This document shows positions 3,716 through 28,466 of a DNA stretch of 34,143 nucleotides, piece by piece. Under the pieces are notes generated by a model that was not told where the DNA came from, made no database searches, and worked only from the letters and a program-made list of their open reading frames with translations. Each line of letters begins with the position of its first letter. The first letter of the stretch is position 1. Both the position numbers and the translations under genes were made by a program. Origin of the DNA: Alphaproteobacteria bacterium (GTDB taxonomy: Bacteria > Pseudomonadota > Alphaproteobacteria > Micavibrionales > Micavibrionaceae); NCBI GenBank assembly GCA_030426925.1, contig JAUHXT010000016.1, positions 1 through 34,143 on the forward strand, given 5' to 3'.

Positions 3716-5266
3716 ATGGGTTCAGGAAACAGACAGCCTTTTGATAATCCGGTCATTGAATGGGTAGATTCCCGCCTTCCGGTGTTCACATTGATGAACA
3801 AGGAGTACGGAGTATTCCCGACACCGAAGAATTTCAATTATTTCTGGAACTTCGGCGCCATTGCCATGGTCATGCTGATCCTGATGCTGGTGACCGGCAT
3901 TACGCTGGCCATGCACTATGCTGCGCATACGGATGTCGCATTCTCCAGTGTGGAACGCATTATGCGGGACGTGAATTTCGGCTGGTTGATTCGTTACATG
4001 CACATGAACGGTGCGTCCTTCTTCTTCATTGCCGTTTATATCCATATTTTCCGCGGGCTTTACTATGGTTCATACAAACAGCCGCGTGAGCTTCTCTGGA
4101 TGCTGGGCGTTTTGATCCTGCTGCTGATGATGGCCACGGCCTTTATGGGCTACGTTCTTCCCTGGGGGCAGATGTCTTTCTGGGGTGCGACCGTTATCAC
4201 CAACCTGTTCTCCGCCCTGCCGGTAGTGGGGCCGGGCATCGTGGAATGGCTCTGGGGCGGTTTCGCCGTCGATAACCCGACGCTGAACCGTTTCTTCTCA
4301 CTGCACTATCTGTTGCCGTTTGTGATTTTTGCGGTTGTCTTCCTGCATGTCTGGGCGCTGCACGTCACTGGCTCAAACAACCCCAGCGGTATTGAACCCA
4401 ATGGCCCACAGGACACGATCCCGTTCCATCCGTATTATACGATGAAGGACACGGCCGGCTTGTTGTTGTTCCTGCTGATCTACTGTATCTTCACGTTCTT
4501 TATGCCCAACGCGCTTGGCCACCCGGACAACTATATCGAAGCAAACCCGCTGGTAACGCCTGCGCACATCGTGCCGGAATGGTACTTCCTGCCGTACTAC
4601 GCCATTCTTCGTGCGGTTACGTTTGATACCAACCTGTTCTTGTTGATTGGCCTTGTTTGTGCGGCATATCTTGTGGCCGTCAATCTATGGTTCACGAAAA
4701 AGCCTGAGAACTGCCCGGTTGCGACAACATTCAAAATCCCTGTGCTGCAAGACATCCCGATGAAGGCGCTGGAACCGTTGATGGCGGCTGGCGCTGTTCT
4801 GTTCCTTGGTATAGGCGGCATGATTGCCTTTATGCCGGACATGGGCATGGCCAAGATGATGGATGCGGCTGCACCTGTTCTGGTAGAGGCCAAGCTTGGT
4901 GGTGTGCTGGCAATGTTCGGGTCAATCGCCATGCTGTTTGTCCTCCCGTTTATTGACCGTCACCCTTACCGCAGCGCCGTATTCCGCCCGTGGTTCAAGG
5001 TTGCTGTGCTGCTGCTGACCATTGATTTCTTTGTGCTGACATATGTTGGCGGAAAGCCCGCGGAAGGGCTGTATGTTCTCGTGGCGCAGGCCGCAACAGC
5101 GTATTATTTTGCCTTCTTCCTGGTGATTATACCCTTCCTGAACAAGTTCGAGCCGCGTGTGCCGCTGCCGCCGAGCATCCATCAGTATGTTCTGGACAAG
5201 AAGGCAAAGAAAAAACAGAAGAGTGACGACTACATGAACGCTTTAAAGCCGGAGGCTGCAGAATAA
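3716..5266 (+). CDS. petB: Cytochrome b of the bc1 complex, with an extra two-helix insertion
   Basis: Membrane subunit holding hemes bL and bH and both quinone sites. The ATG at 3716 is chosen because GGAG lies 10 bases upstream; the TTG at 3707 is too close to it. The 516-residue protein has the N-terminal four-helix heme domain with paired histidines (for example HMNGASFFF and HYLLPF/HVWALH), the Qo-site PEWY (287-290) and a standard C-terminus ending [13 protein letters not shown]. Unusually, about 90 residues (roughly 301-391) with two hydrophobic stretches separate the PEWY/AILRAV segment from [11 protein letters not shown], which are nearly adjacent in ordinary cytochrome b. The stop overlaps the petC start. 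Confidence 0.95.
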
Positions 5267-6024
5267 TGAAACTGTTCAGCGCATTTTGTCTGGGCCTTGC
5301 CCTTATGGTTCCTGTTTCCGCTATGGCAGCCGGTGACGCAGAAACGCCGCCGAAACAGCAATGGCATTTTTCCGGCCCGCTCGGAACATATGACCGGGCT
5401 GCCCTGCAACGCGGTTTTCAGGTATACCGTCAGGTATGTTCCGCTTGTCACTCGATGAAACTCCTGTCTTACCGTAACCTCGAAGATCTCGGGTATAGCG
5501 AAGCGCAGGTCAAGGCGATTGCCGGCGAATATACGGTAACCGATGGCCCGAACGATGAAGGGGAAATGTTCGACCGTCCGGCACTGCCGAGCGACCGTTT
5601 CGTTTCGCCATATCCGAATGATGCTGCCGCCAAATACGCCAACAACGGCGCATTGCCGCCAGACATGTCGCTGCTGGCCAAGGCGCGCAAAAACGGCCCT
5701 GATTACATCTATGCTGTCCTGACGGGTTATGAAGAGCCCCACGGCGATACCCACCTGTTGCCCGGTCAGCACTACAACAAATACATGGCCGGCCATGTGA
5801 TTGCGATGGCTCCGCCTCTGTCTGATGGGCTGGTCGCATACGAGGACGGATCAAGCACAACAGTAGACCAATATTCACGCGATGTTTCGGAATTCCTGAT
5901 GTGGGCCGCTGAGCCAAAGATGGAAGCCCGCAAACAGACAGGGGTTAAGGCAATCCTGTTCCTGCTGGCCTTTTTCGGCATCATGTACGCTGTGAAAAAG
6001 AAACTCTGGGCCGGCCTGCATTAA
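5266..6024 (+). CDS. petC: Cytochrome c1 of the bc1 complex
   Basis: Periplasmic c-type cytochrome, anchored at its C-terminus, that accepts electrons from the Rieske protein. Visible are a signal peptide (about 1-22, ending AMAAG), the heme-attachment motif C58-S-A-C61-H62, the probable axial-Met segment VIAMAPPLSDG, and a C-terminal transmembrane helix (about 226-243) followed by a Lys-rich end. Length of 252 residues is normal. The start codon shares one base with the petB stop (TAATG), indicating translational coupling in petABC. Confidence 0.96.
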   Translation: MKLFSAFCLGLALMVPVSAMAAGDAETPPKQQWHFSGPLGTYDRAALQRGFQVYRQVCSACHSMKLLSYRNLEDLGYSEAQVKAIAGEYTVTDGPNDEGEMFDRPALPSDRFVSPYPNDAAAKYANNGALPPDMSLLAKARKNGPDYIYAVLTGYEEPHGDTHLLPGQHYNKYMAGHVIAMAPPLSDGLVAYEDGSSTTVDQYSRDVSEFLMWAAEPKMEARKQTGVKAILFLLAFFGIMYAVKKKLWAGLH

Positions 6025-6085
6025 CCACTCATTTATTAAGGTTATGCTAACATTTTGACGGTTCTAGCGGTCTGAATGGAGGGGT

Positions 6086-6355
6086 ATGGCTAAGCAACTG
6101 ACACCTCGGCAACTGATATTAAAAGCGCGGTTTTACAGGTTTTTTGGGCTTGTTTTCGCCGCTGTTGGGCTGTTCGTCCTGATGGCCGTTTTTTCCTTCG
6201 CATATAAGGGTGACCTGCAACTGATAGCCGAAGAACCGGCCGCTTTTACAATTGTGTTTATACCCTTCCTGCCGTCTTTCGTTCTGGCCTGGATAGCAGA
6301 CCGCGCGACAAAGAAGGCAATCACCATGCTTGAAAATCAGTCAAAGAGTACCTAA
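6086..6355 (+). CDS. Small two-helix membrane protein, 89 aa
   Basis: Unassigned. A GGAGGGG ribosome-binding site sits just before the ATG. The protein has a basic N-terminus, two hydrophobic helices (about 20-41 and 53-69) and a charged tail, so both ends are probably cytoplasmic. It lies 61 bases after petC and 9 bases before the DUF924 gene, so it may be transcribed with either. The position after petABC could suggest a link to the respiratory chain, but nothing in the sequence shows it. Confidence 0.75.
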   Translation: MAKQLTPRQLILKARFYRFFGLVFAAVGLFVLMAVFSFAYKGDLQLIAEEPAAFTIVFIPFLPSFVLAWIADRATKKAITMLENQSKST

Positions 6356-25207: not shown

Positions 25208-25969
25208 ATGTCTGAAAAATATAGTATTTCAGTCAGGTCATATCAGGTAATAGGCGTGGGTACGCACTACGCTGTAACTTTTAATGGCCCACAGGGCTCG
25301 TTTGAAATGAACGGCTTTCCACTTGACCCTGAAACCGGAGAAATTGTTTTCGGTGAGGATGGCACAGCTCTGGCGGTTGTTGCAGGCAGATTCGATGGGC
25401 GTCTTCTTGGTGAAGATGTCATATTTGAAACAGAGTCATTCGAAGAATTTGCTGCCAATTTAGGTCAGGCGGTATTAGCGGCCAATGAAATCAACAATTC
25501 TGGTCTAGGCTATAGCCTTCTTGGGCCGAATTCCAACAGTGCGGCCTTCACAATTCTGGAAGCGATGGGACTGGATTATCCCGGCAGACCCGGAGCCATA
25601 GACCCGGGATACGGAACACGACTTTTGGGTGGTCAGACCATTGCGCAAATTCGATCCATAGATCCGGCGCAGCTTATTAATTCTGTGGCTTTGGTGCCGT
25701 CTCTATTTTTAGAAAACGTGGGGCGCGTCATCCGCGAGGTTTTTGGAAGTGGCAAGTTCTTAAATCAGGAAACCAAATTCGGAAACGCAGGCGACGATCC
25801 GCTTTGGTCATCACCATATCTGGAAGCACCAGGTGTACAGCTGACAAAGAATTTTGCCACCGCTGCAAATCCGCTGACTATCGCCGCCACAAATATCAAT
25901 GCATTAAAAGATACACCGGTACTCGATAGGGGTGGTGTATCTCGCGCAGTATCAACGCTCGAGGCCTAA
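25208..25969 (+). CDS. Hypothetical protein, 253 aa
   Basis: I recognise no family. The N-terminal third looks beta-rich (YSISVRSYQVIGVGTHYAVTF, a Gly/Asp-rich turn region), and a GPNSNSAAFTILEAMGLDYP segment near residue 106 is the most motif-like part: a polar NSNS turn followed by a helix. The C-terminal part is Ala/Asn/Leu-rich. There is no signal peptide or membrane helix. It has a strong promoter, a GGAG ribosome-binding site 11 bases before the ATG, and a 4-base tail overlap with the flagellin gene. It may be a single-gene transcription unit. Confidence 0.75.
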   Translation: MSEKYSISVRSYQVIGVGTHYAVTFNGPQGSFEMNGFPLDPETGEIVFGEDGTALAVVAGRFDGRLLGEDVIFETESFEEFAANLGQAVLAANEINNSGLGYSLLGPNSNSAAFTILEAMGLDYPGRPGAIDPGYGTRLLGGQTIAQIRSIDPAQLINSVALVPSLFLENVGRVIREVFGSGKFLNQETKFGNAGDDPLWSSPYLEAPGVQLTKNFATAANPLTIAATNINALKDTPVLDRGGVSRAVSTLEA

Positions 25970-27312
25970 AACAACCGGAAGATCGACTGCTGGCTCTGCG
26001 CATTGAGAGCAAGGGTGGTGATAGCCAGCCGCTGGCGCACCGCGCTGGCCAGCAATTCCGCACCCAGCTGGTTCTGGTCCGCGACAACCAGGTCGTCCGC
26101 CCCGGCCCGCAGGTGGTTGATCGTATTCCGCGAAAAAGTCTGCCGCGTTGTGATAATGCTCAGATCGCTTTGCAGGCTGGAATTATAGGTGCGTAAGAAC
26201 TGCCGCGCTTCGCGGATTTCATCGAACAGCTTAAGCATCTCCGTCTTGCTGAAGAAATTATCGCCCGTCAGTCCAATGCCCAGGGATGACGCGTCAATCC
26301 CGTCTGTCACAAGGCTTTTTGAGCGGTCTTCATCGAAATAGGTAACAAGGTTGTCGCCTTGCAACAGCCCGATCCCGCGGTAATGCGCATCTTCGGTTAT
26401 CTGGTCGATCTGTGACAGCAGGCTTAAGTAATCTTCCCGGTATTCCACGGCACGCGTTGATACGTTGACATCCGGATGCTGGACGAACAGCCCGCCACCC
26501 CATTCGATGATGTAGTTCAGGTTGTTGTTGTTCGGTAAGTCGTTCCATAGGGCATCGGCGCGCAAGTGTGCGAAGTTTTCCGGGTTACCCGGCCCGAAAA
26601 ACTGGTTCGGTTCGCCCGGCGCCCAGTTTTCATACATGCCGTTCACCGCCGACCCGCCGGCCAGTCCTTGCCAGAACTGCTGTCCGGCTTCCGGCCCCGT
26701 AACCCATCGCCACACGCCTTCGACTTCATCGTCACTGCCGCCCAGCCAGCTTGTCGCCGTCAGCAATCCGGCAACCACGTCGTTTTCTGCCTGCGATGTA
26801 ATGGTGGCAAGGTGTCCGGTAATTTCCGGCACACCGTTCAGCTCCGCTTGCTCCGCATTGTCGCGCGCAACATTCCACGGCACAAAATCGGTGGTGTTGG
26901 TGTAAAAGTTGCCGAGTGTGGCGAAATACGCCTTGTCCTGATTCAGGTCGCGGATATATTCCAGCGCGCGCGCATCCGGCGTTTCATCCGTTTTGGGGAA
27001 CAGCTCTAACACCGCTTCGTTCAAAAGCGCTTCGGCGTTGTCGAGGATTTTTAAAATGGCTTCAATTCCGTGGTCGGCTTCTTCGACTGTGCGGATGGAT
27101 GTACCGATCCCGTCCAGCAGCCGTTCAATGTCCGCCGCCCGGTTTTGAAGCGAAAGGGAGGAGAAATAATTTTGTGGATTATCGAGCGCACTGTTGATGT
27201 CTTTTCCAGAAGCCAGCGCATTTTGCAGTTGATCGGTCTCGCGCGACAAATGCTTTGTCGCGGTCAGGATCTGGCGCTGGGAAGCGCTAAGAACTGCCAG
27301 TGAACCCACCAT
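25966..27312 (-). CDS. Flagellin with an inserted C-type lectin-like domain
   Basis: A 448-residue protein. Residues 1-105 match the flagellin N-terminal D0/D1 helices (SASQRQILTATKHLSRE, SALDNPQNYFSSLSLQNRA, ADHGIEAILKIL), and the last 90 or so match the C-terminal helices ending NAQSQQSIFRLF. In between, residues about 134-272 read as a C-type lectin-like fold: GHLATITSQAEN, WLGG (189-192), WRWVTG (201-206), YENWAPGEPN with an EPN motif (234-236), and WNDLP (256-260). No cysteines occur. The filament would thus display the lectin domain outward. The ATG lacks a ribosome-binding site, but a small frame with a strong one ends 8 bases upstream. Confidence 0.85.
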   Translation of the reverse strand: MVGSLAVLSASQRQILTATKHLSRETDQLQNALASGKDINSALDNPQNYFSSLSLQNRAADIERLLDGIGTSIRTVEEADHGIEAILKILDNAEALLNEAVLELFPKTDETPDARALEYIRDLNQDKAYFATLGNFYTNTTDFVPWNVARDNAEQAELNGVPEITGHLATITSQAENDVVAGLLTATSWLGGSDDEVEGVWRWVTGPEAGQQFWQGLAGGSAVNGMYENWAPGEPNQFFGPGNPENFAHLRADALWNDLPNNNNLNYIIEWGGGLFVQHPDVNVSTRAVEYREDYLSLLSQIDQITEDAHYRGIGLLQGDNLVTYFDEDRSKSLVTDGIDASSLGIGLTGDNFFSKTEMLKLFDEIREARQFLRTYNSSLQSDLSIITTRQTFSRNTINHLRAGADDLVVADQNQLGAELLASAVRQRLAITTLALNAQSQQSIFRLF

Positions 27313-27320
27313 GAATAAAC

Positions 27321-27343
27321 TCAGATACTAACCGGATATCTGA
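27321..27343 (-). promoter_or_regulatory. Hairpin just upstream of the flagellin start
   Basis: TCAGATA and TATCTGA are a perfect 7-bp inverted repeat with a 9-base spacer, ending 8 bases before the flagellin ATG. In the mRNA it would fold next to the start codon and overlaps the end of the upstream mini-frame. It may control flagellin translation. Confidence 0.45.
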
Positions 27344-27401
27344 TACAAAAATGGTATGGTGGGCTGATTCCAGAGTGGTTTTCGGCTTTTTCCTGCATCA
27401 T
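27321..27401 (-). CDS. Possible leader peptide upstream of flagellin, 26 aa
   Basis: A short frame starting at a double ATG preceded by TAGGAGATA, a much better ribosome-binding site than that of the flagellin. It ends at a TGA 8 bases before the flagellin ATG, in a different frame, so translation could be coupled through reinitiation. The peptide is polar at first (MMQEKAENHSG) with an aromatic/hydrophobic end. It may only be a translated leader rather than a functional protein. Confidence 0.35.
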   Translation of the reverse strand: MMQEKAENHSGISPPYHFCIRYPVSI

Positions 27402-27650: not shown

Positions 27651-28466
27651 ATGGAAGATGCTGATGTAGATGACAAGGGATTGCCGAAAGCGGGGGCAGG
27701 CAAAAAAATTGCGCGAGTTGGTTTGAATGTAGCCAGTTCTATTCCTTTTGTCGGTGGGATTTTGTCGGCCGCAGCAGGGGCTTGGTCTGAAGCTGAACAA
27801 GACGCAGTAAATAAAGTATTCCAGCAATGGATTCAGATGCTTGAAGATGAGTTGCGCGATAAAGCTCAAACAATAGTAGAAATTATGGCGCGCGTAGATA
27901 TTCAGGACGAACGAATTAAAGCAAGAATTGAATCGGATGAATATCAAGCGCTTCTAAAAAAAGCCTTTCATAGCTGGGCAAAAATTGACTCAGAAGCTAA
28001 ACGTCAAAAGATTAGGAATTTACTAAGTAACACGGCAGTTACCAGCGTGTCATCGGATGATGTAGTAAAGCTTTTTATTGATTGGCTAAATACTTATTCA
28101 GATTTTCATTTTGAAGTTATTGGCGAAATATATAGGAGCGGACAAATAACAAGGGGGGAAATATGGAGAAATTTAGGTAGGCCAGATGTAAGGGAAGATT
28201 CTGCTGACGCAGACCTATACAAACTTTTGATAAGTGATTTATCAATCGGTCGAATTATAAGGCAAGAAAGGCAGACGGACTACTACGGTAATTTTGTAAA
28301 AAAACCGACAACCAAGAAGCGCAACGTTGGTGTTAGAGATAATAAAATGAAATCTGCTTTCGATGATGAAGATTATTATGTGCTGACGGATTTAGGTCAG
28401 CAATTTGTCCACTACGCCATGAATGAATTAGTACCAAGAATCGAGTTTAAGGAAGAGGTTGCATAG
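27651..28466 (+). CDS. Orphan protein with Gly-rich hydrophobic N-terminus and winged-helix-like C-terminus
   Basis: A 271-residue protein of no family I can name. Residues about 16-45 contain GLNVASSIPFVGGILSAAAG, a Gly/Ala-rich hydrophobic helix that could enter a membrane. Residues 50-130 are charged and helical (KVFQQWIQMLEDELRDKAQ, KRQKIRNLLSN). Residues about 150-215 (FEVIGEIYRSGQITRGEIWRNLG then LYKLLISDLSIGRIIRQ) look like a winged helix, and the end is YVLTDLGQQFVHYAMNELVP. Codon use is visibly A/T-richer than in neighbours and no good ribosome-binding site is seen, both suggesting acquisition. Could belong to a defence or regulatory function; this is speculation. Confidence 0.8.
   Translation: MEDADVDDKGLPKAGAGKKIARVGLNVASSIPFVGGILSAAAGAWSEAEQDAVNKVFQQWIQMLEDELRDKAQTIVEIMARVDIQDERIKARIESDEYQALLKKAFHSWAKIDSEAKRQKIRNLLSNTAVTSVSSDDVVKLFIDWLNTYSDFHFEVIGEIYRSGQITRGEIWRNLGRPDVREDSADADLYKLLISDLSIGRIIRQERQTDYYGNFVKKPTTKKRNVGVRDNKMKSAFDDEDYYVLTDLGQQFVHYAMNELVPRIEFKEEVA

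Follow-up and report, generated by a model that had tools for sequence, protein, structure and literature searches.

Domain insertion into flagellin is a known phenomenon, described for flagellinolysin, which carries a gluzincin HExxH metallopeptidase within its central hypervariable region; the survey published with it recorded 61 different domains in this region across 26,587 flagellins (Eckhard et al. 2017, PMC5595980). The top-ten domain table of that article contains no lectin, and no term in its main text starts with 'lectin' or 'carbohydrate'; a C-type lectin may be among the 61. Here we analysed a stretch of 34,143 nucleotides from an alphaproteobacterium of the family Micavibrionaceae (contig JAUHXT010000016.1 of assembly GCA_030426925.1; its full length is called the window) and found in it a gene for a 448-residue flagellin in which the outer, variable part is occupied by a C-type lectin-like domain (CTLD). 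Like flagellinolysin, this protein holds a putative functional domain within the central hypervariable region, whereas its insert is of the lectin type and the HExxH motif is absent from the whole protein, which is thus not of the flagellinolysin type. It is the C-type lectin variant that is new here, being well supported by the predicted structure and plausible in its proposed function, and among the open-licence papers listed in our searches none described such a flagellin.

Two further kinds of protein, and presumably a third, invite comparison. The carbohydrate-recognition domains (CRDs) of the collectins mannose-binding protein C and conglutinin, the latter a calcium-dependent lectin, have the fold predicted for the window domain and the same EPN/E/WND pattern, while the window domain differs from them in being cysteine-free, bacterial, placed on a flagellin and about 25% identical in the overlay on mannose-binding protein C. 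The cell-surface flagellin of Sphingomonas sp. A1 (presumably PDB 3k8v, judged by its title) is related to flagellins, is said to bind the polysaccharide alginate and is not known to contain a CTLD. Lastly, the RTX protein GMV2456 of Micavibrio aeruginosavorus (1238 residues, 18 repeats and a lectin domain) was predicted to undergo type I secretion and proposed to act in prey recognition and adhesion (PMC3189940). That protein, so described, is built on RTX repeats, whereas the window protein is a flagellin without them.

The original prediction placed the gene at exactly the coordinates given in Table 1, and the gene proves to lie on the minus strand, where it reads as 448 codons and a stop, as opposed to 11 stops in the corresponding frame of the plus strand. 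Its product is most probably a true flagellin subunit. Of the three Pfam families proposed as a check, Flagellin_N (PF00669) matched residues 15-100 above its cut-off (E 3.5e-8, 34 bits against 26.6), as did the lectin family described below, while Flagellin_C (PF00700) left the protein unmatched at E <= 10. The same profile matched 41 of 78 flagellins sampled from the family at E <= 0.01 and failed to match the other 37, some of them incomplete, so that surveys requiring PF00700, as the 2017 survey did, would miss many such proteins. The C-terminal core was recognised by other means, as the NCBIfam flagellin model NF009330 matched residues 285-447 (158.3 bits and E 2.8e-46 for the whole protein, under the model cut-off of 614), a second flagellin model, NF011295, gave 147 bits, likewise under its own cut-off, and Caulobacter flagellins matched residues 290-448 (phmmer, 2.5e-6 to 3e-6). 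Furthermore, both ends of the protein resemble those of other flagellins of the family in alignment.

We then considered a structure predicted by AlphaFold from a 41-row alignment (the window protein, seven orthologs and 33 lectin pieces), with a mean pLDDT of 83.9 and a pTM of 0.63. The model has helices at residues 10-34 and 46-104 before the insert and at 283-311 and 356-447 after it, in line with the claim that the terminal flagellin helices are present. In VIA-align, this predicted helical core overlays a Roseburia flagellin filament (9hpz; 2.0 Å over 187 residues, model positions 45-409) and the Helicobacter pylori FlaA filament (9ygu; 2.3 Å over 194 residues). Since the core and the lectin overlays appear in one VIA-align list, the lectin is placed within the D1 core, with one half of it on either side, at the position of the outward D2/D3 domains, as had been proposed.

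The insert itself matched the Pfam family Lectin_C (PF00059) at residues 165-268 (E 3.2e-5; score 25.1 bits, cut-off 22.6), a family with no matches across 14 control genomes. The landmarks from which a C-type lectin had been suspected, GHLATITS, WLGG, WRWVTG, NWAPGEPN and WNDLP, are all found in the translated protein, and the proposed span of about residues 134-272 was correct to a few residues. Modelled with ten-residue block means of 87-98 over residues 121-270, the domain adopts a predicted C-type lectin fold: the top Foldseek match in the PDB was the CRD of CLEC10A (E 1.1e-8), and the model overlays mannose-binding protein C in complex with a mannose disaccharide (1kza) at 1.1 Å over 115 of 115 residues (VIA-align, Z 19.2).

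As to whether the EPN and WND residues would come together at one site, the alignment answers indirectly. In it, NWAPGEPN...PEN...WND of the window protein stands opposite NWADGEPN...PEN...WND of conglutinin, and all three motifs fall within the stretch overlaid on 1kza, which points to a single site; the EPN, E and WND residues are, we take it, the ligands of calcium site 2 of C-type lectins. E234, P235, N236, E245, W256, N257 and D258 are invariant in all eight lectin flagellins identified in the family (one of which ends early), and in the 41-row set P235, E245, W256 and D258 remained invariant, with E234, N236 and N257 kept in at least 90%. Mean pairwise identity among the seven full-length members (21 pairs) was 0.61 in the lectin, 0.53 in the N-terminal core and 0.475 in the C-terminal core; judged by these identities, conservation is higher in the lectin than in either core, the reverse of what a freely drifting surface domain would do. 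None of the eight contains a cysteine. Animal-type CRDs carry two conserved disulfides, and therefore we did not file the domain as one of them.

We consider it probable that the variable outer domain of a flagellin was replaced by a bacterial, cysteine-free CTLD akin to modules of RTX and cadherin-repeat proteins, and that the resulting subunit is exported, assembles together with other flagellins and binds sugar via calcium. Export would most likely proceed through the flagellar apparatus, followed by co-assembly with the cell's other flagellins; the flagellar export gate FlhA is present in the genome (E 3.2e-257), making this route possible, and the absence of cysteines would suit export without disulfide formation. 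Each assembled subunit would expose one lectin, giving a filament, or a part of one, with many copies. A single calcium held by EPN, Glu245 and WND would bind a sugar of the mannose, N-acetylglucosamine or fucose type, and multivalency would turn weak binding at single sites into firm, calcium-dependent attachment to a glycan-coated surface, for which prey cells, algae, particles and biofilm are all possible targets. In M. aeruginosavorus, flagellar genes are described as active during the attack phase and switched off once the cell has attached (PMC3189940); a filament that bears lectins would come into play during attack, upon first contact. The flagellum may in this way double as a sugar-gripping organ, and an intact, conserved sugar-type site on a flagellin, in a family with an epibiotic predator, renders flagellar glycan recognition directly testable. 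Moreover, natural lectin-flagellin fusions show insert boundaries that a filament may tolerate.

The genome also encodes large proteins that contain relatives of the domain, as well as relatives of the two other surface domains borne by flagellins of this family, LamG and an unnamed third domain. A CTLD with 49% identity to the window lectin lies in the RTX protein C56, and others lie in the RTX protein C97 and the cadherin-repeat protein C72; the RTX repeat motif GGxGxD was counted 14 times in C56, 18 times in C97 and not once in the window protein. As RTX proteins with a CTLD, C56 and C97 look to be of the GMV2456 kind. C97 (L160:1508-6919, minus strand) also holds the third domain, 57% identical to its copy in a family flagellin, and contigs C36 and C79 encode at their ends partial LamG domains that adjoin RTX repeats (identities of 46 and 52% with flagellin LamG), an assignment made from sequence matches to the flagellin LamG domain, as Pfam recognised in these pieces RTX repeats together with a sub-cut-off match to EipA in C36 and an H-type lectin in C79, with Laminin_G_3 unmatched at E <= 0.01. 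These large RTX and cadherin-repeat proteins are presumed to be adhesins, and the related modules in such surface-type proteins point to a possible source of the flagellin domains. The C79 piece (L165:19-1686, minus strand) is the end of an RTX protein with an H-type lectin match at 3.5e-8 and the tail of a LamG-like domain, and the other half of the protein may lie on C36; two open reading frames (ORFs) beside the C72 protein resemble membrane-fusion proteins by eye.

The domain might instead bind glycans of its own cell or of kin, serving filament bundling, self-aggregation or biofilm formation and not prey or host contact. The sequence does not reveal the ligand, and the kin module occurs in RTX proteins that are likewise without assigned targets; we regard this alternative as unlikely, though less so than the others considered here.

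In a CTLD tree of 102 rows (after removal of duplicate loci and of matches that span fewer than 95 positions of the query), the family's flagellin lectins grouped with the lectins of its large proteins and with those of some Planctomycetota RTX proteins (support 96). This tree, a quick one, split the eight family lectin flagellins into two groups and set five Verrucomicrobiota lectin flagellins, described below, apart. However, approximately unbiased (AU) tests did not reject a tree in which the eight form a single clade (p 0.9) or one in which all thirteen do (p 0.775), the constrained tree being better each time, and we therefore do not claim independent origins of the flagellin lectins.

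The window protein is not the only flagellin of its genome. Three further genes matched Flagellin_N above the cut-off, so that the four comprise one of the common type (cut by a contig end), two tandem LamG flagellins (L006:2846-4429 and 4610-6199, contig C49; Laminin_G_3 at 2.8e-14 in one, the domain of the other being 57% identical) and the lectin flagellin; a fifth match, below the cut-off, resembles FlgL by eye. To these we added order-wide matches and hand-chosen regions, a non-random set favouring odd lengths and good assemblies, in which 85 ORFs with both core matches came to 78 flagellins after removal of duplicates (five ORFs with one core match were excluded). Pfam recognised Laminin_G_3 in 19 of the 78, Flagellin_IN in 18 and Lectin_C in eight. 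The third surface domain, of about 155 residues and with a core like PEISAIGFDND followed by ..DDD.., was seen in 12 family flagellins (L040-L051) besides C97; in the two of these scanned singly it had no Pfam match, and its best PDB profile match had an E of 0.97.

A tree of the flagellin cores, with residues 106-282 excluded, gathered the 39 flagellins without any of the three domains (to which the label 'common type' was given by default) in one clade (SH-aLRT 99), while among the other 39 the lectin, LamG and third-domain proteins were mixed, with seven label changes against a minimum of four and a shuffle mean of 35. This mixing of labels suggests that the surface domain was probably swapped among related cores, the tree being a quick one with many weakly supported forks. 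Micavibrionaceae seem to exchange modules between adhesins and flagellins, which is a more novel matter than the single protein. We tentatively picture, as a possibility that falls short of probable, a modular sugar-reading flagellum, whose interchangeable lectin, LamG-concanavalin and PEISAIGFDND-type domains are traded with RTX adhesins, whose different filaments, or stretches of one filament, would have different glycan specificities with which to recognise prey or surfaces and grip them while the cell is motile, and which would have its like in a similar recruitment of lectins in Verrucomicrobiota.

Beyond the family, lectin flagellins proved scattered. We scanned 84,980 species genomes with an eight-row alignment and two peptide patterns, both within the lectin, and the best 80 of 220 confirmed places were followed up, so more lectin flagellins may exist beyond them. 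From loci among these that hold the lectin alone came the 33 pieces of other proteins in the 41-row alignment. Whole-protein matches among these 80 were the seven family records. The 80 loci hold 46 CTLD-bearing ORFs of up to 900 residues, of which 38 were scanned (all except the seven family flagellins and the second ORF of L146), and five of the 38, all from Verrucomicrobiota, matched Flagellin_N and also passed for Flagellin_C. EPN, E and WND are present in all five, although Lectin_C stayed below its cut-off (E 0.031 in L150, 0.00075 in L135, the remaining three unmatched at E <= 0.01). The model of one of them, of lower confidence (pLDDT 74.2), overlays filament subunits as well as C-type lectins (1kza, 1.6 Å over 112 residues). 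A flagellin match was obtained in 97 of 384 genomes drawn from the class of these bacteria. In each of the five genomes themselves (G142-G146), Flagellin_N matched at 6 to 10 places; several of these lie in long open frames, of roughly 940-2100 codons, that may encode flagellins of very large size.

Within the order, at least 47 of 142 genomes gave a Lectin_C match, and most of the matching frames are 645 to 3332 codons long, a reading that leaves out one 538-codon frame (G011); this count is a lower bound, for it shows two of the four matches in the window's own genome and omits the lectin flagellin of G050. The four came from a search of that genome by itself with a looser E limit, all of them at E < 1e-5. 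In one of the lectin flagellins (L013/L081, genome G012) the frame ends early with a TAA after residue 327, either a decaying copy or an assembly error.

Several observations weigh against a sugar-binding filament as we propose it. Among the matches listed, a flagellin core together with a lectin occurred in just eight of the 142 genomes, the window protein included and one copy broken by a stop, which makes the trait patchy and dispensable. Both complete genomes of about 2.5 Mb that are candidates for M. aeruginosavorus (G045 and G046) lack such a combination among the matches listed; each has one frame with a lectin (1246 codons in G045, 1244 in G046), close to the published 1238. Upstream of its ATG, the window gene shows no evident ribosome-binding site of its own, and a pattern search found upstream of it no sigma54-like site of the kind present before three of the eight lectin flagellins. 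Finally, an Opitutia flagellin (L179, genome G422) carries, by eye, a CTLD-like insert from which both EPN and WND are missing, which may be a naturally degenerate site, and a flagellin CTLD therefore need not bind sugar through an EPN/WND site; in L184 (G327), the second further near-full-length match inspected, a CTLD was not evident by eye.

The Opitutia protein lends some weight to another explanation, namely that the CTLD has been retained as a sturdy surface domain (an antigenic mask, a spacer, a filament stiffener or a protein-protein contact) that binds no sugar, as is true of many natural CTLDs; that the same flagellin position also accepts LamG and the third domain is in keeping with it. 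A mere scaffold, however, should lose its calcium-site residues, as L179 has, whereas these residues are kept throughout the eight family members and in the five Verrucomicrobiota proteins found among the best 80 of 220 places, and the lectin is more conserved than the core that carries it. On this evidence we judge such a role unlikely.

It is less likely still that the protein is a flagellin relative outside the filament, whether a flagellin-like adhesin, secreted or on the cell surface, or a protein of the hook-filament junction. The FlgL model TIGR02550 did give a weak match (20.1 bits against a cut-off of 127.2), PF00700 gave none, the PDB holds a 'bacterial cell-surface flagellin' by title (3k8v), and no other flagellar gene was recognised by eye among the window ORFs, which were not scanned for such genes. 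Yet the scores of NF009330 and NF011295, although under their own cut-offs, far exceed that of FlgL, a different gene resembling FlgL directly follows, on contig C26, an ORF resembling FlgK (both by eye), the termini are conserved as in other family flagellins, and the modelled helical core overlays filament subunits. That the lectin serves a diversity-generating retroelement, a kind of system in which CTLDs are common, as its variable protein is highly improbable despite the Asn-rich loop NNNNLN after WND, as a 321-base query from the domain found no near-copy template in the whole genome (111 contigs; other matches of at most 26 bases), reverse transcriptase not having been searched for. A viral origin of the domain was considered too and set aside, a viral structure library having returned just general CTLD matches.

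Table 1. Position of the lectin flagellin gene and its parts in the window.
Feature	Coordinates	Strand	Evidence
448-residue flagellin gene with inserted C-type lectin-like domain	25966..27312	-	Pfam, NCBIfam, AlphaFold model, structural overlays
N-terminal flagellin core, residues 1-105, D0/D1 helices	26998..27312	-	Pfam Flagellin_N 15-100; model helices 10-34, 46-104
Cysteine-free C-type lectin-like domain, residues 125-275 (span adopted here), predicted D2/D3 position	26488..26940	-	Lectin_C; 1kza overlay; related own-genome modules
EPN motif, residues 234-236, putative mannose-type calcium-site motif	26605..26613	-	Invariant 8/8; aligns with conglutinin EPN
Glu245, counterpart of E in conglutinin PEN	26578..26580	-	Invariant 8/8; conglutinin alignment
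WND motif, residues 256-258, N and D as two putative calcium ligands	26539..26547	-	Invariant 8/8; conglutinin alignment
C-terminal flagellin core, residues 283-448	25969..26466	-	NF009330 285-447; Caulobacter flagellins 290-448; helices 283-311, 356-447

Sigma54-like sites were looked for upstream of the family's flagellins with a pattern that was loosened after a first look, and the counts are exploratory, compared with shuffles that preserve single-base composition alone. Such sites preceded three of eight lectin, four of 18 LamG, one of 12 third-domain and one of 38 other flagellins, against a shuffled expectation of 0.06 to 0.15 per class, and the lone 'other' flagellin (L021) is itself of the LamG type. 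The sites lie in L052, L055, L070, L074, L014, L015, L016, L044 and L021.

The flagellin gene is flanked by two plus-strand ORFs, 25208-25969 (overlapping the flagellin stop by four bases) and 27651-28466, for which a Pfam scan returned nothing above cut-off and an NCBIfam scan nothing useful, and a repeat search near the gene brought up nothing striking. Directly upstream, an ORF of 26 codons (window 27321-27401, minus strand), preceded by AGGAGATA, stops eight bases before the flagellin ATG; a leader peptide or translational coupling is possible.

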